Assembly: GCF_000004075.3 (NCBI RefSeq)
Contig: NC_026660.2
Location: forward strand, 28,151,498 to 28,215,497
DNA: 64,000 nt
Source of the DNA: Cucumis sativus
Taxonomy: Eukaryota; Streptophyta; Magnoliopsida; Cucurbitales; Cucurbitaceae
Direction: 5' to 3'
Under the pieces are notes generated by a model. The model had not been told where the DNA came from. It searched no databases and saw nothing but the letters and a program-made list of their open reading frames with translations. The translations under genes were made by a program, and so were the position numbers. Position 1 is the stretch's first letter, and each line of letters begins with the position of its first letter. This document shows positions 3,917 to 38,631 of the stretch, one piece after another.

Positions 3917-4588
3917 TTGATCTCAGAGGGTTTGTATGATTTTTTTTCAATAATTTCCCCTCTAATTTCTTCATTCTCACCTTCCATGATCTGAATAATA
4001 AATGGTTTTTGTTATATGTTATTCAAGATTTTGTAGGTTCTTTTTCCTTTATGATAATTGATAATTATTTCAAGGGATTAAATCTTGCATTGATGAAATA
4101 TTTTAGTACACAGTTAGAATAATAAGGAAATTTGTATAGTTTGATTATGTACACACTACAAAGAAACTAAAGTGGTCAGATTTGATTTGACTCGAACAAT
4201 ATATATTTGTTAATTGTTTCTCGATCTTGGAATGTTTACAACGAAATCTTGAATAACAAATTGAATCAATATATGATTTGAATACAGATATATATTAGAT
4301 GGGCAATAATTAGGCATGTACTTAACCAATATAATAGGAAATCATAATTAGATATTTACTTCTACCTATGAATGAAAAAATGGTATAAGATGTCTTACTA
4401 AAACAATACTATATATATATATTATCAAATCAATAAATTCTAAATGAACTAATAATTTGAACAAAACCATCCCCTAAGAATGGACCCGTCCCAGAGTGCA
4501 TCAGTTGGCAAGTTTGAAGTCGTCCGGCGTGGTTTCAAATCAGCAACATTGAATACATTGTATGAATGGTCTATAATTGAATAATAAA
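3917..4588. other. Intergenic region with a tRNA-like insert
   Basis: 3' flank of the zinc-finger gene, followed by the 3' flank of the minus-strand F-box gene. No coding capacity was seen. Positions about 4443-4470 and 4555-4588 match the 3' flank of the second F-box copy (about 6386-6475), so the tandem duplication includes flanking DNA. The segment between them (about 4468-4553) has no counterpart in copy 2. Confidence 0.55.
4468..4553 (+). repeat. Possible tRNA-derived insert (degenerate tRNA or SINE head)
   Basis: This segment interrupts sequence otherwise shared by the 3' flanks of the two F-box copies. It contains TGCATCAGTTGG (4497-4508), close to a pol III A box, and GGTTTCAAATC (4531-4541), close to a B box with one extra T. 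The spacing is about that of a tRNA gene. The T-arm stem does not pair well and no clean anticodon arm was found, so a functional tRNA is unlikely. A decayed tRNA copy or the head of a SINE fits better. Chance resemblance remains possible. Confidence 0.25.
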
Positions 4589-5659
4589 TTATACCAATTT
4601 GATAAACTTTCTATCTTTAAGATCAAATAGAGCATCAATAGAGGAAGTCCCCCGCCAATCTTGAATCCTATTAAAGTAAATACAATTCCTTTTAACTCCT
4701 TCATCAACACAGAATGAACAATCTTTCCTCAAAACAAACGAATAATTCCCCAAATTATCCACATAAACCCATCTTCTCTCTTCTTCATCCAACCTATAAA
4801 CTTCAAAATTAATCACTCGTAAACTATAATCCACCAATCGATTCACCACATAAATCTCCCCGCCGCACTCCACCAGATGTTTCTGATCCCCATTACCACA
4901 CGGTGTTCCATTACCACACGGCGGAACACGTAATTTTATCAGTTCCATACTCGAATCAATGATCTTGAAAATCTCTCCCAATCGAGTAATTGCATAAATC
5001 TTCTTCTTGTGTTCGATTAAATCCTCGTAATAGTTTTCACCAATAAAGGTTATGTTCAGCCATGCATCATTACCTTCCTGTTTTGTAAATCCTAATTTTC
5101 CGCCTGGGCAAACCAGCGTAATAATACCGGGAAAATTAGGAGAAACTATGATCTTACGGATTCTAGGAATGTATTTAATCGTATAAGATTCAGCTACTTT
5201 GTTGATTCGAAAATTGAGCAAGTTTAGTTCCGATTCTTTCCCACGGGCTTCGTTGTCGTACATCAACCGACTTGAAAACAGTTTCGTAAAATGCAACTTA
5301 CTCTGCTTATTGCTGCTGCTACTGAAGTAAGTTCGACGACGACGGATGGGAATGAGATGAAAGATTGTCTTACGGTGGGGTGTGAAAATAGAGGAATAAT
5401 CGTAGTAGAAAAAAGGAAGAGAAACTTCTTGTCGCCATAAAGTACAAACACTTCGGAATCGGATGATGTCAATCTCGGTTTCAAGCCGATTTCCGATGAG
5501 CTCCCAAAGTTCAGAAGGTAGATCGGACCAGGGTACCGGAGATTTCGTTGTTGCAGTAATTGAAGCGGTTCCATCACAGAGATGAAGACGATGATACCAT
5601 AAACTCCAAATGGTTGTAGAACGAGAGCAAGCAGAACAACGTATGAAAACACGCATCAT
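4589..5659 (-). CDS. F-box protein with DUF295 / KIB-type C-terminal domain
   Basis: Single-exon gene, 356 aa from the tandem ATGs at 5659-5654. The frame stays open upstream to about 5818, but that extension is low-complexity Phe/Ile-rich sequence from AT-rich DNA and is probably 5' UTR. An F-box lies at about residues 44-80 (WSDLPSELWELIGNRL, then RFRSVCTLWRQ). The rest is the beta-rich DUF295 domain found in plant SKIP23/KIB-like F-box proteins, including the typical end 'SIDALFDLKDRKFIKL'. F-box proteins bind SKP1 and act as substrate receptors of SCF ubiquitin ligases; the substrate here is unknown. The gene is one of a tandem pair with the damaged copy at 6472-7452. The family expands rapidly in plants and many members are poorly conserved. 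Confidence 0.75.
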   Translation of the reverse strand: MMRVFIRCSACSRSTTIWSLWYHRLHLCDGTASITATTKSPVPWSDLPSELWELIGNRLETEIDIIRFRSVCTLWRQEVSLPFFYYDYSSIFTPHRKTIFHLIPIRRRRTYFSSSSNKQSKLHFTKLFSSRLMYDNEARGKESELNLLNFRINKVAESYTIKYIPRIRKIIVSPNFPGIITLVCPGGKLGFTKQEGNDAWLNITFIGENYYEDLIEHKKKIYAITRLGEIFKIIDSSMELIKLRVPPCGNGTPCGNGDQKHLVECGGEIYVVNRLVDYSLRVINFEVYRLDEEERRWVYVDNLGNYSFVLRKDCSFCVDEGVKRNCIYFNRIQDWRGTSSIDALFDLKDRKFIKLV

Positions 5660-6471
5660 TTTACTCTCAATTCTTTTTTTAAAAAAATAAAAAAATCTAT
5701 ACCAAAAAATCGTTTCAAATTTCATTAATATATAGAAAATAAAACAAAGGAATCCTATTCCGAAAAAGATTACATAATATATCAATAAAATTATCTGAAA
5801 GAAAATTACATTAAACAATAATTTTTTAATTACAAAATGTAGATTTAGATGTTATGTATTCCAGTTTTATTTTAAAAAATCATTGATGCATTTTATTTGA
5901 AAATTAATAGAATTATTGCAAATCTAAAATCTATAAGTAAATAATAACAGTAATTGTTATTATAGATATATGGAGTAATTTAATATTTATTATAAAAATT
6001 AAATCATATTAACCACCTTAATTTATCATTGATCTTAATCTTGGTTATTATTGTTTTTTTTAATAATATTGAGGTTCCTTTTTTAATTTTTATCTCACCT
6101 TTTAAATTTTTTCTATCTTTGTCCATTAATTTTATTTCAAATATAGGAATTAAATTATTTGCTAACTTTATTCATATTTCATTTTATTTTATTTTTTAAA
6201 ATTTTTATGAGACTTTATAATTAAAATTTTATTTTATTTGAGATTGGAATGAAAATAAAATATTAGAAATCTAAATTTTCACCATATAACTAAATTAAAA
6301 ACGTTCCCTTTTCTTCTTTTAATTAATTTAATGTTGTTAACATGCTCCCTCTAATTGTCCATAATAGATATCAAATTTGTAAAATCAAATCAAATAAACT
6401 AATAATTTCAACAAAACTCTAAATTGTATATGAATAGCATCTAATTATATTGAATAATAAAAATAAATAAA

Positions 6472-7452
6472 TTATAACAAATTGATACACCTTCCATCTT
6501 TAAGATCAAATAGAGCATCAATAGAGTAAATCCCCCGCAAACCTTGAACCCTATTAAAGTAGATACAATTCCTTTTAACTCCTTCATCAACACAGAATGA
6601 AAATTCTCTCCTCAAAACAAATGAATACTTCCCCAAATTATCCACATAAACCCATCTTCTCTTTTCTTCGTCCAACTTATAAACTTCTAATTTTTCTTTA
6701 CTCTCATCCACCCATCGATTCACCACATAAATCTTCCCGCAGCACTCCACCAGATATTTAAGATCTCCTTGCCAATACTCAGGCGTCTTCCCACACAGCG
6801 GAACATGTAATTTTATCGCTTTCATCTTCGATTCATTGATCCTGAAAATCTCTCCCTTTCGATTAATTCCATGAATCTTCCTCTTCTGCACGATTAAATC
6901 CTCGAAAAAGTTATAACCTATTTTGGCATGCCGCCATCCATAATTATTATCAACATCTTCCTTACCACCCTCTTTGTAAAACGATAAATTTCCGTTTCTC
7001 CTAATTCCTGTAATAATAACAGGAAAATTATGGGAAACTATGATCCTACGTAACGGGAATATAGGCCACATAGGCCAGTCTTTAAACGTATAAAATTCAG
7101 CTACTTGTTTGATTCGAAAATCGAGCAAGTTTAGTTCCAAATCTTTTCCACGGGCTTCGTTGTCGTACATTAAATGACTTGAAAACAGTTTCGTAAAATG
7201 CAACTTACTATGCTTATTGCTGCTACTGAAGTAGGTTCGACGACGACGGATGGGAATGATATGAAAGATTGGCCTACAACACGGAATGAACTTACAGTAG
7301 GAATTGTAGAAGATAGGAGGAGGAAGAGAAACTTCTTGTCGCCATGAACTACAAACACTCCGGAATCGGATGATGTCAATCTCGATTTCAAGCCGATTTC
7401 CAATGAGCTCCCAAATTCTTTGTTCAAAAGCAAATGGATACCAAAAATGATT
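6472..7452 (-). pseudogene. Truncated tandem copy of the F-box/DUF295 gene
   Basis: This frame aligns along its whole length with the gene at 4589-5659 and shares both flanks with it. It is open back to a TGA at 7455-7453, but the section carrying the start codons and first half of the F-box is missing. Between the shared blocks GAGCTCCCAAA and TTCATTAATA, copy 1 has 212 bp and copy 2 only 43 bp, a net loss of about 170 bp. What survives begins in the F-box core (WELIGNRLEIEIDIIRFRSV). The first in-frame ATG lies well inside the DUF295 part (the M of LMYDNEA, about 7170). Downstream there are no frameshifts or stops. It is either a young pseudogene, or a gene now making an N-terminally truncated DUF295 protein without a complete F-box. 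Confidence 0.8.
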
Positions 7453-7455
7453 TCA

Positions 7456-8848
7456 GATTTCATTAATATATAGAAAACAAAACACAATAATTCTATTATG
7501 GAAAATATTACATAATATATCAATAAAATTATTTTATTGACTTTCCCATTATTGAAATTTTATTTTCTTAATTAAATTTAGTTGTCAATGTTTACTATAC
7601 TATTATTTTATTCATCTATAGCTTTTTATTATAAACTATTTGCAACTAGTGTGTAATGTATAAATTGAAATACGAGATTTACAACAACCAAAAAATTGTA
7701 TTAAATTTGATCATCATTCTTTTCTGTATATATATATATATGTAATTTTAAAAAATAAATTAATATATAAAAAATGAAAATTTTCCAAGTCGAATATTTC
7801 TTTCGTTGATTTAAATATTTAATAGCAATATAGGTGTCAGTTGAGCTAAACTCATGTTGGCCGTGTGCTATTTTTTATTGTAGGCATGGATTTTTTCGTT
7901 TTCAAAATATTTTGCGATTCCCTTCATAAATATTTATTTATTTTTCATGCATACATATCAAATTGCTTTAATAATAATTAATAATAAGAGGAGATGAAAA
8001 GTGATAAACCTATAACCTTCTTATTAGATCACATTCTTAAGTTCATTTGAGTTGTATTCAATTTGAGGAATGGATTAAAATGTTAAATTTCAACACTCTA
8101 TTAAAGAAAAAGCGATTTCACAATATCTACCCTTTAAATATTAACGACTCTAATTTGAATTTGTGCAAAAATAATTAATTAAATGAAAATAGATTATATT
8201 GAGAAAAAGTATAATAACACACTATAAAGTAAAGTAGTTGTGTAATATGTGTCAATCAGCATCTTCTCCACCTAATATTAATGAGGTAATAATGTTTACC
8301 ATGTCAATTAAAGAAAAGAATATGAATCTAAAACAATAATGGCAGTTGTTGTATTGATGAACAACAAATATTAAAAGTAAAAATAAAATAGAGAGAAAAA
8401 AGAAAAAAGAAAAAAGAAAAAGGATTGATGATAGGCAAAAGGAAGGAGAACCACCCGCCACCAGCTGCCGCAGGAAGAGGGAAGGTCTGAAAATCACACA
8501 GAGTAAAAAGTGGGGAGAGAGTTGTGGGGAAGAGAAGAGCAATCCCAAACCCCACCATTCAATCATCCATCAAAAATTAGAACTTTCTTACAGTGTTTTT
8601 GGTATATATAATATAATCTGTTTGTAATTATCTTTGATTAACCTTACAAACTTGTGATTGTTTTACAAGGAAACTTCCCCTTTTCCCTCTTTTTCTTCTA
8701 TCTTCTTCTTTCTTTCGTCTTTCCAATCCAAACCCATTCAAGGAATCCACCTAGAAGAGAGATTCTTACCTTACCCAGATCGACCCTTTTCAAACCCTGA
8801 TCCGATCGGATCGGATCGTTTTCGATCTGAGCAATTTCAGATTGTAAT
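7456..8848. other. Intergenic DNA and SRPK promoter / 5' UTR
   Basis: Up to about 7545 this is duplicated F-box upstream flank. The rest is AT-rich, with a TA microsatellite at about 7729-7742 and an A/G-rich run near 8393-8422. From about 8570 it becomes the 5' leader of the kinase gene, with a TATA-like TATATATAATATAA at about 8602-8615 and a pyrimidine-rich leader with a repeated GATCGGATCG word before the ATG at 8849. No coding gene was found. Confidence 0.55.
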
Positions 8849-28751: not shown

Positions 28752-29670
28752 GTAAGTTTAATGGGCACTGGATATTTTCAATAATCGAATGCTTTTATGT
28801 TTTTCCCTTTTGGTTTGTCCTCTAATGGCTCTGTACTAGTTTTGGAGGCTATCTGTATCCACATGAGAAGAATCTCAACCAGTCCAAGTGGATGGAGGTG
28901 GCCCATCCTTTGCTCACGAGCTAATATTTTCCTGGTTTGTTATTGTGGAAGTGGGTTCTGTTTAAAGATATCTTCACTGGGACGAGGTTATTAATCTTGA
29001 AGTTTATGTAGCTCAGTATTGGATTCTGCGAATTTGGTTCTAGTTGGCTTGCAACTTATCTGAAGTGTGTGAGACTTGAGTATCTAATCTGAGAATGCCC
29101 TTTGAATATTTAGGGGTTTTGTTTTTTTAAGTTTTATCCTTCTTCCTTTTCCTCTAACTGGAGGATTGTTTGTAGCTGATGTTTTTAATTTGGTAATATT
29201 TTTTTATTCTTTGATTTAGGTTCCTTCTTTGTTTTGATTGGAATAACACCCATAAATGTCTTTTCCCTTTTTGACTTCTCAAAAGTTTCACTAACCGCCT
29301 TTTGATCTTTTTCATCTGTTGTTAATTCTCTAAATCTTGCTTTAAATGATATTTTTCCGACGTACTTTTGTGCGTATTTGTAGCAGTTTTATGCTTATGG
29401 GTATCTTATTTTCCTGTCTTAGGTCAATTTGTGGAAATTTATAGAGTAGAGAAGACTATGATTTAGAGTTATTATTTCATGTTTAATGTATTTGGATTAT
29501 TTACTCGTGCAATTCTATTCTTGCTTTCATATTTTCAGGTGTTTTTTTCTTCTCAAATCTGAAGCATTAGATCTTTGACTGTGCAGCTTTTATTAATCAT
29601 TATTTTTTTCTTTTCCTCATATTTTGACAGACTGAATTCAATTTGAGGAATAGTGATTATCCAGTTCACT

Positions 29671-32964
<3,294 letters not shown>

Positions 32965-33008
32965 TTCCTATAGACTAACATATACGGATACAATTTAGAA
33001 TAACATAT

Positions 33009-33851
33009 AATATTAGTGCTTATTCGATTTTCTTTAACAATATCGTCCAGTTGCTTGTAGAATTCGATAAGTTGGCTAGCTATTATAAGAAAAATGAAGT
33101 TCTACAAACATTTGAACTCTTGTTCTATGTTAAGTACGGAATTTTCATAATCATGTACAAATTATAGTTATTTGTAAACTGTACACAAGATTTATTTCAG
33201 CTATATTTACAGTTTGTATTTGATAATTTAGTATACATGACTTTTGAAGTACTTCTTGAAGCATTCTTCATGCCTACAAAAACAACTTGTGACTTTGTAA
33301 ACTTCAATCAAAAGTTTTGGAAACCTTGTAGTAAAGTAGTCATCAAATCCCTCCGGAATGGATCCAACAAGCTCCTGCAATAGTGAATAAACACAAATCA
33401 AAATAATAGAGTAATTGGCAGAATGCAAAGGTGCAACAATACTTACAATTGACCATGGATACCAATCTTCAAAGAGAGTTATAACACTTGTTTGTTCACT
33501 ATTGCAAGAGCTTTGTTAGAGCGATTTTGAAGGGATTTTATGTACTTTACTACAAGGTTTTCAAAACTCTTGATTGAAGTTTACAAAGTTATAAGTTGTT
33601 TTCGTAGGCAGGAAGAATGCTTCCAGAAGTACTTTAAAAGCTATGTAGACTAAATTATCAAATACCAACTGTAATAGTTGAAATAGATCTTCGGTACAGT
33701 GTACAAATAACTATAATTTGTACACGATTACGAAAATTCAGTACTTGACAATAATAGAAGTTCAAATGTGTGTGGAAGTTCATTTTTCTTATAATAGCTA
33801 ACCAACTTATCGAATTCTATTGTTAAAGAAAATCGAATAAGCACTAATATT
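33009..33851. repeat. Large inverted repeat built from the IRE1 last exon
   Basis: Left arm about 33009-33397, right arm about 33486-33851, spacer about 88 bp. The left arm holds the IRE1 3' flank, its complete last exon and the preceding acceptor. The right arm is the same sequence in opposite orientation, from TGTTTGTTCACTATTGCAAGAGC to GAATAAGCACTAATATT. Similarity is high by eye, with scattered substitutions, small indels and one gap of about 15-18 bp. The right-arm copy of the coding part carries a 1-nt deletion and substitutions, so it is a pseudo-exon. The whole right arm lies in the last intron of IRE1, so both arms are in the same primary transcript. Confidence 0.93.
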
Positions 33852-36800
33852 TTCTTATAATGGTCATTTGACAAGTACTAATTGACCATTTGACAAGTGA
33901 CTATAAGCATCGTCAGAGTTAAAACTAACATTCTCCAATCTAAATATGCATTTATATGTGATATAAATCATAAAATCAAAGAGAGTTAAAACTAACCATC
34001 TCCAATCTAAATATGCATTTATATGTGATATAAATCATAAAATCAAAATGATGTCATGATATTAATTTATGCTAATTGAAAGGAACCATAAAAGAGAAAA
34101 GGAAACCTGAATTTCTTTTGGCAGCTCTCTATAATGATTCAACTTATTGCGCATAACTCGCAATAAATCTCGAACACTATCGTACTTGTAACGCCTATAC
34201 CGACCAATGTTAGCGATGAAAATTGGTTCCAACTTTTCATTCCATTTAATGCCTAAAGCTATTTGTGCAGTACTCTCTAATGCTTTCAAGAGATTACTCT
34301 CTCGGTCTTCCAATTCTATTCTGTCACTAGTATCGCGAAGAAAAGAAAGTCGCATCTCTGGACTCCAAAATAAAGGATGTTGTAACACTTTTGATGCTTT
34401 CGGTCTGGTGTAATCAATGAAAATTATCGAGAGAAATGAGTACATATATGTTTTAAACTTCAAATATAACGCAAATTGATACAAATGAACGTCAAATACA
34501 CAATATTATTCAATTTCAATAAATGAAAATGAAAACTAATAATTACGATTTTTTTAGTCTGTGAACAATAATTTCTTACCTTAAACCAGGATTGGGATTT
34601 AATAATCGACAAATAAGATCTACAACTTCGGGGATGTTGTCCACCAATAACAAGTTCATCTTGTTGTTCACAATATTGACATCACGCTCAAGACTATCAC
34701 CAAATGGATGTCTACCACCTGTGATGCAGAAAAAGAGAACACAACCTAAACTAAACAAATCAACTGCACGTGTTTGTCGTTCATGAAGAAGTTGTTCAGG
34801 GGCTTGCCAACCAGAACTCCCACAACCTATAATAATTTTACCCATTTGTATAGAGTTAAAAAACTTATCATCAACAAGGAGTATTGAAGTTCGCACGACC
34901 TATAATAGAATTTTACCCTTACCCATTTCTATAGAGTTAAAAAACTTATCATCAACCAGAAACGGAGTATTGAAGTTGGGAGATAAAAAGGATACTTGCC
35001 AGTGGCATGATGTCCCAACGATGATACATTGGCTGGAAGACGCTTGCTGATTCCCATATCTGAGAGCTTTGAGCATATAGATTTTTGTTTAAGTATCAAC
35101 ACATTTTGTGGCTTCAAGTCTCGATGAATTATCCCCAACTCATGCAAATGCTTAAGACCAACTACTATATCTCTGCAATTGACCAACCAAATCTTGGGTT
35201 TAAATGCATATCTATACATAAAGATATAATGTTTATGAAAAAAAAACATATTAATTTCTAGTCCATAACTTTCTCCTTATAATGTAAATCATACCAGTAC
35301 ACAATACAGGTCGGTAAGAAACAATAAAACAACGATATGAGAACTAAAACAACGATAAGAGGTTTGATACACATAATTAAATATTTTATTGGATAGGATA
35401 AAAAGTTGTTACTTTGGAAGAGTATAGAAAACCTCATGAGTTTTAGAAGAATCGAAGATGGACGACCATTTTCATTCCACAATTTCAAATTTGGCAGAGC
35501 AACTTTGATCGACTCCAAATGTATATTATACCCATCCATGTGTCCACTATCACGATCTAAGCCAAGCACAAAGTTCTTGGGGAGATCAGAATAAATTTGA
35601 ATCAAATCATAAAGGTTACAAGTACATCGTTCCAACGAAAGATATACAAAATCTTGATCACTCTCCATCCCATACCAACGAACGATGTTTGGGTGACGAT
35701 CAGAAACAATCAAATTTTGAACTTCCTTAGAGGCAACATCATGGTGAGTCTTCACTAGGCGTTTCACAGCAACTGGTCTCCCTTCGTAGATTCCCTCAAG
35801 AATAACTGTGCCATTACTACCTGTGGCTATCTTTTTGTTGGTTATCCATAATTTACCAATGTGACGTCCGCTAATAAGATTATTACCATGAAACCCGCTA
35901 TTAAGATTGTTCTCACGTTGGAGAAGCATATCTTCAATTTCTGATGAAATAGATACCTCTCTTTTGCCGGAACTTTTTTTCAACTTTCTAGGTTTGTTTT
36001 TTTTGGAAGAGTTATCTCTTGAATTAGAAGTACCCAAAGACAATTTCTCTTTTAATAAAAATTGCTTTACTTTTTCAGTCAATGTCCTGCCATACCTCAT
36101 CAATCCCACTAGCATGGTCAATAAAAATACAAAAAACAATCCAAAAGCTTCCGGTAGAATCCCCATTTTTTGTTTCTGAATGATATTTGATTCATTAATT
36201 TTCATAGAAGGCAATGGATCTACCGCATAAGAGGTATTGTTAACAAGCCCATGAAACATGAACTTTCCCGACTTAGCGTTTATATGTTTACCAATTTTCA
36301 ATTGGGAAGGAAGGAATGAACCAGACATATTATCGCTATCATGAGCCTCTGATGATAGTATTTTATATCCAGACGGTCCTGACAAAAAATGGCTCCGATC
36401 ACGAAAGACAAGTGCTTTTGATTGGCAAGACAATGGCACACCATAATCAATTCCAAAACTATTATTATTTTGAAGAGTCCAAGGTATGCCTTCTATTGGA
36501 TTCTCGACATCTGGACAAAGTAAGGTAGCTCCGATTTCAGCAACATTCAAACTCCACGAAGCTTCTTCGGAGTTCGAAAAAGATGATTTCAGAGAATAAT
36601 CTGTCCTTGTGATGTACAGACGTGGCTCAACAGAGTTCATCGATTGCATCAAATCCTTAATGTCCATATTATGTTTAGATTTATAACTAACCTGCTCTTC
36701 ATTGCTTAGCCCAGATGATAAAAATTTAGACATGTGATTACGAATAAGCTCTCCAGTCACAAGATCAACCTCAAAAACTGCAGTTTTCCTTGAACCAGTC

Positions 36801-37646
36801 ATCACTGCACCATCCTCAAATATGTAAGGTGTATTTCTAACAACCTCATCAATCGTGCTAGGTAGTTTCTGAAATGTCATAGAGAAAAAATACATTAATC
36901 AAAGTTGAAGCTATTTTTCATACTTCCAATATATTGAGACAATACATGTGATTAAGGAAACAGGAAGGATACAAATTTTTCTGAACTAATTGAGAGAGCC
37001 AATTACAATTACCAACTTCGAAAGAGAACATTAAAAACATGATGGGTGTTATTAATTCACTAAATTTTACCATTTTACCATGCTCAGTGTGTATGTAAAG
37101 CTCCCAGTCATCCCCACAATCAAAAAAGAAGGAACTGCCCACACCTGAAGCATTTTCTTGATTGGGTTCATGATTGATATTAGCTTGATATGACGAATAG
37201 ATTGGTGGTCCAGAACTAAATGACCAAATTATCTTCATAGAATTACTATCCACCAAATGAATTGCTCCATCCAAAGCAGCAATAAGAGCAGTACTACTTT
37301 TACCTTTCCTACAATAGTAGCACTCAATTACATTGATTTACAAGTTCATTGTAATAAGCCTAAAATTTGAACCCTAACTAGACGATAGACATAGGGATGA
37401 TAGGCATGAGTATTCAATCCCCCAAGTCCAAGTCATAATTCAGTACTAATTAATAAGGAAACTACAGAAACCACGATTAAAGACTCACAGTGGGAGAGAC
37501 AAGAGAGATCTTCCGCCAATTCGAGTCACTCCTTCAGAATTGCCTCCATACAGATTCAAAACAGAGAGTTCTGAATTCGATGAGACAAGAAAACTCCAAA
37601 ATCTTAAAATTAGCAATAAAAGTAGGCAAAAGAAACGGCAATTCAT
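33228..37646 (-). CDS. IRE1: IRE1 ER-stress sensor: luminal domain, kinase and RNase
   Basis: Seven exons closing to 898 aa: 37489-37646, 37071-37308, 35433-36868, 35000-35172, 34580-34826, 34107-34404, 33228-33374. A signal peptide (MNCRFFCLLLLLILRFWS) is followed by the luminal unfolded-protein sensor (ALIAALDGAIHLVD, PYIFEDG), a membrane segment at about 373-390, and the kinase (Lys501 in VAVKRL, HRDLKPQN with Asp629, DMG as SDMGISKRL). The KEN RNase domain is at about 770-898, with Asn837 and His841 in RNKLNHYREL matching known catalytic positions. In plants IRE1 cleaves and triggers unconventional splicing of bZIP60 mRNA and degrades ER-bound mRNAs. Exon 35000-35172 ends in a GC donor. 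The last exon (48 aa), essential to the RNase fold, forms one arm of a long inverted repeat. The locus also holds a duplicated intron end and an upstream fragment. Confidence 0.95.
33915..34048. repeat. Two-unit 67-bp tandem repeat in the last IRE1 intron
   Basis: Units 33915-33981 and 33982-34048 each begin AGAGTTAAAACTAAC and end ATAAATCATAAAATCAAA, and are nearly identical. The repeat sits between the inverted-repeat right arm and the penultimate exon. Confidence 0.9.
34826..34979 (-). repeat. Tandem duplication copying an IRE1 intron 3' splice site
   Basis: Two units start CCTATAAT at 34826 and 34899 (73 bp apart), and both contain GAGTTAAAAAACTTATCATC and GGAGTATTGAAGTT. On the minus strand each ends in a TATTATAG acceptor, so the intron has the real 3' splice site at 34826/34827 and a decoy copy 73 nt upstream. 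The second unit has small extra insertions. Confidence 0.8.
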
Positions 37647-38428
37647 TGGAGAGAATAAGGGTGGACCAAAATGAGAGATCTGGAAATGGATACAAATGGG
37701 ATGAGATTTGAAGTGGAATCTTTGAATAGAAAAGAAAATTTAGAAGAGGATTAAAGAAAAGATGGCGGCAATTGAGAGATTCCAAGCTTCTTCCATTGAA
37801 TGTGATCTTGGAATTACCAAAACCTTGGGATTTCTCTATATGCAGGTGCAATCCAAGATTCCTAACTCATTTTTTTTCTTTTCAATCCAATTCTTTAATA
37901 CCTTAGTTAATGTCCATCTCTTTCTTTCTTTTTTCTTTCTTAAATTAAGCCATATTCCATAGAAACTATCAAAATTTAAAAAAATCTAATAAAAAAGAAA
38001 GAGGCCGAGAATACATTCCCGTGTTTATATATATATATATATATACATAATATATGTCTACATAATATGTATCTATATATTTTTTTATTTATGGATGAAT
38101 AAATGTATAATGTAAATTTATATTTTTCTACGGCAATCCGATCAGTGATAATTCCACACCATTCCTCGCAAAAAAAAGAAAAAAAAGAATACATAGGGAT
38201 GAGGAATAGGGAATGGGAAATGGACGGGGACGGGAACGGGAAGCGCATTACCAATGAGACTTCGGCCTTTGTAAGATTATTATCATGAAAACAGTTATTG
38301 TTTAGTTATTTTTAATAAATGGAAGAGTATTTAAAGTCCTAATTAGTAGGATATGAGGTGCTTCTATGTGTAATTTCTCAAATGCACCCTTCTACATTAT
38401 TAGTGTTTAATTTGATTGATGGAGAGGT

Positions 38429-38631
38429 GGCTCAATAGGGTTCATCGCACTAGATTGCATCAAATCCTTGATGCCTTTAGATTTATAACTATCAAGCTCT
38501 TCATTGCTTAGTACAGATAACAAGAATGTAGACATGTGATTACGAATAAGCTCTCTAGTCACAAGATCAATCTCGAAAATGATACTTTTTATAAAACCAG
38601 TAATCACTACACCATCTTCAAATATGTAAGG
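38429..38631 (-). pseudogene. Displaced fragment of the IRE1 luminal domain
   Basis: About 203 bp match IRE1 exon 3 at 36624-36829 in the same orientation, about 780 bp upstream of the IRE1 start codon. The conceptual fragment still reads in frame (YIFEDGVVITG, then ELIRNHMSTFL, then KDLMQS) but has several substitutions and small indels. It lacks every other IRE1 exon. The flanks on both sides are unrelated AT-rich DNA. It is a partial duplicate and not a gene. Confidence 0.9.

Follow-up and report, generated by a model that had tools for sequence, protein, structure and literature searches.

The last intron of the cucumber IRE1 gene contains the gene's last exon and 3' flank a second time, as an inverted and partly decayed copy. 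On balance, this is probably a neutral local inverted duplication, the inserted copy of which is decaying; the transcript can form a hairpin, to which we ascribe no selected regulatory role. The repeat lies in a 64 kb window (bases 28,151,498-28,215,497 of contig C6; positions given without a contig are counted from the first base of the window), where self-BLAST (E<=1e-6, low-complexity masking) detected no other inverted repeat. An alignment of the two arms confirmed the claim of a preliminary description of this DNA that 33486-33851 is the reverse of 33009-33397: over 390 columns, 25 of which contain gaps, 325 of the 365 aligned bases are identical (89.0%), and the 40 mismatches comprise 25 transitions and 15 transversions. 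In a repeat search with a minimum length of 30, the pair was recovered as ungapped blocks of 132, 77, 61 and 34 nt with identities of 91, 88, 93 and 100%, respectively. The palindrome scores 751 bits, a value that counts both arms twice as the palindrome is aligned to itself, whereas the maximum among 100 dinucleotide shuffles of the 10 kb between 30000 and 40000 is 42.8 bits; a chance origin of the arms was rejected on these grounds. The other coordinates of the preliminary description also held, namely the loop of 88 nt (33398-33485) and, in our gene model, the intron between 34106 and 33375 followed by a last exon for 48 residues (Table 1).

The IRE1 gene and its surroundings

The preliminary description had named the host gene as IRE1, and the domains, the motifs and a full-length model all bear this out. 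By prediction, the gene is complete on the minus strand, with seven exons that encode 898 residues with no internal stops, and the kinase domain is followed by a Ribonuc_2-5A (KEN) domain, as expected of a member of the IRE1 family. Exons 6 and 7 match PF06479 above the family cut-off; the exon-3 piece, taken alone, matches Pkinase with E 1.2e-6, which is under the curated cut-off. The kinase and RNase parts can be aligned to yeast IRE1 (3fbv) with E 1.4e-86, and the kinase lysine (AVKRL), the HRDLKPQN loop and the catalytic RNase histidine (RNKLNHYRELP) are all present and aligned with their yeast counterparts. In 3sdj, the position of the catalytic histidine of the aligned IRE1 is occupied by N, which we take to be an RNase-dead mutation. 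The exon within the left arm still codes for ELVGSIPEGFDDYFTTRFPKLLIEVY..., a segment conserved with respect to yeast IRE1. When the genome (226.6 Mb in 88 contigs, the same that was searched for copies of the repeat) was screened for the RNase-domain family, five matches were obtained: two exons of IRE1, two exons of a paralog located at C6:24.63 Mb, and the right arm. For the codons of exons 2-7 that can be aligned between IRE1 and this paralog, Ka/Ks is 0.29. In keeping with a cucumber genome, a plantacyanin fragment encoded in it agrees with cucumber basic protein (PDB 2cbp) in 61 of 65 residues.

Two further features of these genes are recorded here as side observations. The intron after exon 4 starts with a GC donor (GCAAGT, 34994-34999) and is the sole GC-AG intron in the predicted IRE1 model. 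About 5 kb past the last exon of the paralog, at C6:24638389-24638466, there is a fragment resembling the IRE1 luminal domain, with 58% identity over 26 aligned residues and 83% identity over 59 nt.

A glutamate-receptor-like gene, recognized in pieces, converges on IRE1 from the opposite strand. Its last open piece (32467-32961) has no Pfam match and was assigned by position; its TGA stop (32962-32964) is separated by 263 nt from the stop of IRE1. Plant poly(A) signals are loose; the first AATAAA past the stop on the receptor strand is found at 33386, inside the last intron of IRE1, and from 33009 onwards the 3' flank of the receptor gene belongs to the duplicated block. Elsewhere in the window, the minus strand harbors a tandem pair of KIB1-4 beta-propeller genes (4583-7559) with about 80% DNA identity over 4583-5508 and 6466-7415, the first of which also has an F-box-like match below the cut-off. 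No known RNA family reached the gathering score in the window, and no tRNA was detected in it with bacterial settings.

Table 1. Positions of the IRE1 gene, of the inverted repeat and of the convergent gene, counted within the window
Feature	Position	Strand	Remark
Whole predicted IRE1 coding region	33231..37646	-	Gene model without transcript evidence
Predicted IRE1 exons	37646-37489, 37308-37071, 36868-35433, 35172-35000, 34826-34580, 34404-34107, 33374-33231	-	Gene model
IRE1 exon 6	34107..34404	-	Encodes the larger part of the RNase domain, with the catalytic histidine (RNKLNHYRELP)
IRE1 last intron	33375..34106	-	732 nt; donor GTTTCC, acceptor TTGCAG
IRE1 last coding exon	33231..33374	-	48 codons; end of the Ribonuc_2-5A domain
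IRE1 stop TAA	33230-33228	-	Read from the sequence
AATAAA in the left arm, possible poly(A) signal	33191..33196	-	Sole AATAAA on the IRE1 sense strand within 33000-34120
Left arm, functional copy	33009..33397	-	IRE1 last coding exon with the adjoining intron end and the 3' flank
Spacer, loop region of the predicted hairpin	33398..33485	.	88 nt
Right arm, decayed copy of the left arm in inverse orientation	33486..33851	+	Wholly within the IRE1 last intron
17-nt sequence at the inner end of the right arm	33469..33485	+	94% identical to 33976-33992 (one mismatch)
Two tandem 66-nt units, 97%	33915..34047	.	Last intron, near the outer side of the right arm
Glutamate-receptor-like gene, in pieces (ANF_receptor, Lig_chan)	29647..32964	+	Convergent with IRE1

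Origin and decay of the inverted copy

The damage is distributed unequally between the arms. With the last exon of the paralog as the outgroup, 13 derived substitutions are assigned to the right arm and 6 to the left one, with 3 remaining ambiguous; both indels of the exon part, a 1-nt insertion and a 2-nt deletion, are on the right; the splice acceptor of the right arm is broken (CAG to CAA, i.e. AG to AA); and its RNase-domain match contains one in-frame TGA. Since the derived changes, the exon indels and the broken acceptor are concentrated there, we identify the right arm as the inserted, decaying copy. A local inverted duplication would have placed a reversed copy of approximately 390 bp from the end of IRE1 (the last exon, the intron sequence just before it and the 3' flank after it) within the gene's own last intron, with the original copy remaining functional and constrained and the inserted one decaying as a pseudo-fragment. 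As to how this might have occurred, the stretch matched by the 17-nt sequence at the inner end of the right arm (33976-33992) falls at the junction of the tandem 66-nt pair. The match possibly represents a junction homology of the duplication and, if so, would be compatible with the repair of a break by copying of nearby sequence backwards between short homologies.

The distance between the arms (K2P 0.12) is small compared to the Ks of the paralogs (0.75 over exons 2-7), hence the duplication must have been much later than the split of the paralogs. At a substitution rate of 7e-9 per site per year, its age would be about 8.5 million years, close to that of the split between cucumber and melon, a rough figure that would be falsified by gene conversion. 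Such conversion may have taken place. The outer end of the repeat (33009-33084) is more alike between the arms than neutral decay predicts, with 1 of 59 aligned bases differing there versus 35 of 284 in the exon and the other flank (p=0.01, for a boundary picked post hoc and a part that includes a 17-column gap), and this might be due to arm-to-arm gene conversion near that end. Divergence in the exon part is no lower than in the flanks (18/142 versus 18/201, p=0.29), and the 18 exon differences are spread over codon positions 1, 2 and 3 as 10, 2 and 6, a pattern that bears no clear mark of one constrained arm and that is also a poor fit to plain neutral decay.

Inverted repeats as a class are not rare in this genome. 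In a small control, namely the first 15 stretches from a list of 80, three of the random 10-kb stretches contained an inverted repeat of at least 150 nt with at least 75% identity. In a separate set of 38 sources (225,470 bases; 30 of them 3-kb loci around one gene family), such repeats were present in two, the locus L041 and the window itself; the loci L001, L004, L005, L007 and L040, which repeat the window, and L002, L003 and L006, which repeat the region of the paralog, were left out of this set. Two of the three control repeats belong to dispersed families, with at least 63 matches (40 of 383 candidates scored) and at least 46 matches (40 of 112 scored), and the third one is a local pair.

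That two of the three control repeats are dispersed is an argument for a transposable element or a MITE having brought or made the IRE1 repeat as well. The IRE1 repeat is set apart from these controls, however, because it is made of a coding exon with its flank and because dispersed copies of it were not found: a genome-wide search with 33009-33851 returned the block itself and the last exon of the IRE1 paralog, and the adjoining intron (33852-34060) matched only itself, within a DNA search that passes over very common words, such that a short common element at the junction could escape. A transposon origin was therefore rejected as the best reading, and we regard it as very unlikely. A still more improbable explanation is that the right arm is a product of assembly and is not present in the plant. 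Palindromes are open to mis-assembly and the analysis is based on one assembly, but an artefactual copy would be nearly identical to its source, whereas 40 of the 365 aligned sites are different between the arms, in addition to the gaps, with most of the damage on the right arm.

The locus contains one more duplicated piece: upstream of the gene start and on the same strand, 38423-38631 is a direct, partial copy of a part of IRE1 exon 3 (36618-36829) with 80% identity. Besides these two segments, a genome search with the exon-3 fragment listed only the paralog's own exon. Thus, the IRE1 locus has duplicated its own pieces more than once.

The predicted hairpin and its possible effects

The unspliced IRE1 transcript can, according to folding predictions, form a long imperfect hairpin. 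For the minus-strand (sense) RNA of the block, the predicted free energy is -443.5 kcal/mol compared to a mean of -157.8 for 20 shuffles (z -41), and the predicted stem includes about 329 arm-arm pairs in 28 uninterrupted runs, the longest one of 41 pairs. The preliminary description had proposed a stem of roughly 370 bp; a very stable hairpin is indeed predicted, but with 328-329 arm-arm pairs, the figure of 370 being close to the length of an arm. By prediction, then, the locus shares one feature with proto-MIRNA or hpRNA loci, namely arms derived from a protein-coding gene that are inverted and able to fold.

In most transcripts, splicing would part the arms, the right one being removed with the lariat and the left one being kept in the mRNA, and owing to this separation IRE1 production would be normal. 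Dicing would affect, at most, a minority of RNAs that stay unspliced or read through, and would yield low-level siRNAs as a by-product. Any effect of the hairpin is, accordingly, probably limited to weak dicing, and the hairpin probably has no function.

The strongest competitor of this reading is a functional hpRNA or proto-MIRNA, the Dicer-like siRNAs of which would lower the level of IRE1 mRNA or the cutting of which would destroy the pre-mRNA in cis. We consider it possible but rather unlikely. The extreme stability of the predicted fold is in its favor, and so is the match of the right-arm 21-mers to the left arm (of 346, 19 are perfect and 66 have one mismatch); the perfect ones, however, are confined to the 3' flank, with none wholly within the coding exon. 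For an RNA that terminates past the AATAAA, at 33180-33150, 189-218 arm-arm pairs are still predicted, but the arms themselves would be physically separated by splicing. The literature bears on both sides. According to PMC9263138, hairpin transgenes with mismatched or G:U pairs remain effective for RNAi in plants and escape self-methylation, with approximately 18-25% of the bases changed in those designs compared to the 11% that differ between the IRE1 arms, and yet the efficiency of RNAi falls as duplex stability is reduced; in Arabidopsis, siRNAs from an inverted duplication (siRNA02) are known (PMC350667). Selection for RNA structure was sought as an excess of pairing-preserving changes and not found: among the 25 transitions, which come from two arms of one genome and give the comparison low power, 11 are compatible with G:U pairing in the sense RNA and 14 produce A.C (p=0.69). 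The suggestion of the preliminary description that IRE1 silences itself through siRNAs thus describes something that could happen, but most right-arm guides are mismatched, no perfect 21-mers lie in the coding exon, and the pairing bears no sign of selection. Targeting of the paralog was rejected: each 21-mer of the exon part of the right arm (the first 180 nt) has at least three mismatches to the last-exon region of the paralog, and the one left-arm 21-mer that matches this region perfectly is sense to both genes.

Considerably less probable is a switch based on intron retention, whereby the stem would hide the last acceptor and give rise to IRE1 lacking the last 48 residues. The last acceptor is part of the predicted stem, as the preliminary description had noticed, and lies there in an uninterrupted 17-pair run, the donor (GTTTCC) is weak, and a retained intron would lead to an early stop, the product reading ...RELPKEIQ and then 14 foreign residues, VSFSLLWFLSISIN. 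However, going by its title, a study cited in PMC6581728 (Liu et al. 1995) found that splicing in Nicotiana plumbaginifolia is not inhibited by hairpins over a 3' splice site. Furthermore, the donor of the paralog (GTTATT) is also weak, although a repeat of this kind was not found in the stretch of the paralog that was examined, so that the weakness of the IRE1 donor cannot be attributed to the repeat. Hence the acceptor is within the predicted hairpin, but the retention that was supposed to result lacks support. The postulated "RNase-dead, kinase-active" form is plausible in view of the early stop, but, because the catalytic histidine is encoded upstream of the lost exon, what this form would lose is the conserved end of the RNase domain. 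Nor is the proposed autoregulation by IRE1's own RNase supported: an IRE1-type cleavage loop was looked for in the stem and not found, as the sole loop-like CNGCNGN motif of the pre-mRNA, with a 4-bp stem, is at 36783, outside the hairpin.

A more elaborate possibility makes use of the convergent gene. The stem holds the 3' flank of the receptor gene, and therefore siRNAs derived from it would be antisense to IRE1 and, from the other strand, to the receptor 3' end, provided that the receptor transcripts reach that far. One can imagine a self-limiting sensor in which the pre-mRNA, while it still has its last intron, folds the last exon into a substrate for Dicer and splicing and dicing compete, such that IRE1 output tracks the speed of splicing, and the siRNAs couple ER stress to the receptor gene; this we offer as a speculation that is, if anything, even more doubtful than the retention switch.

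Taken together, the one-sided decay, the young age relative to the paralog split, the intact host gene, the failure to find dispersed copies, the pairing that appears unselected and the second local duplication lead us to prefer a neutral relic over these alternatives.

Known systems and significance

Seen as a genomic structure, the IRE1 repeat is of the kind envisaged by the inverted-duplication model for the origin of plant MIRNA genes. In that model (Allen et al., as presented in PMC3237417), a gene fragment is inverted and gives a long hairpin with arms that resemble the source, and the same is seen in IRE1; unlike in the model, the IRE1 fragment, known here from its sequence, sits in its own source gene, and precursor and target are one pre-mRNA. 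The repeat is less usual in having the last exon itself as one of its arms. Another parallel is miR838, an intronic hairpin in DCL1 that, according to PMC3661559 (citing Rajagopalan et al. 2006), is proposed to maintain the level of its host; the same paper gives 65 (42%) rice intronic miRNAs with the potential to target their hosts. Like the predicted IRE1 hairpin, that of miR838 involves an intron and belongs to the gene of an enzyme that cuts RNA, with host self-control as the proposed outcome; however, the miR838 hairpin is contained within the intron, whereas one IRE1 arm is the last exon with the 3' flank, so that the hairpin would be undone by splicing and its dicing would cut into the IRE1 coding region. 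Sirtrons, i.e. siRNA-rich introns (Chen et al. 2011, as cited in PMC5260113), are similar in that double-stranded RNA potential is encoded in an intron of a plant protein-coding gene, but they are defined by small RNAs, together with methylation of the host gene, and the IRE1 case is known from its sequence. The Arabidopsis siRNA02 locus (PMC350667) likewise consists of inverted copies, one of which lies in a (hypothetical) gene, and has the potential for dsRNA; there, 24-nt siRNAs were demonstrated, and about 2.1 kb lie between the two sites, compared to the 88 nt between the IRE1 arms.

Among the titles listed in literature searches, none was on cucumber IRE1, which does not prove that nothing has been published; among those listed for IRE1 and intron retention, none was on the cucumber gene, and among those listed for intronic or inverted-repeat siRNAs and for cucumber, none was on an IRE1 hairpin.

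In practical terms, small-RNA or RNA-seq reads from the last exon of IRE1 could be mis-mapped between the arms. If the repeat is only a relic, it would represent an early step on the way from an inverted duplication to a hairpin RNA gene, with the source, the copy and the host intron all within one gene. If it is diced, it would be a natural case of mutually exclusive splicing and dicing acting on one RNA, in a conserved sensor of ER stress.
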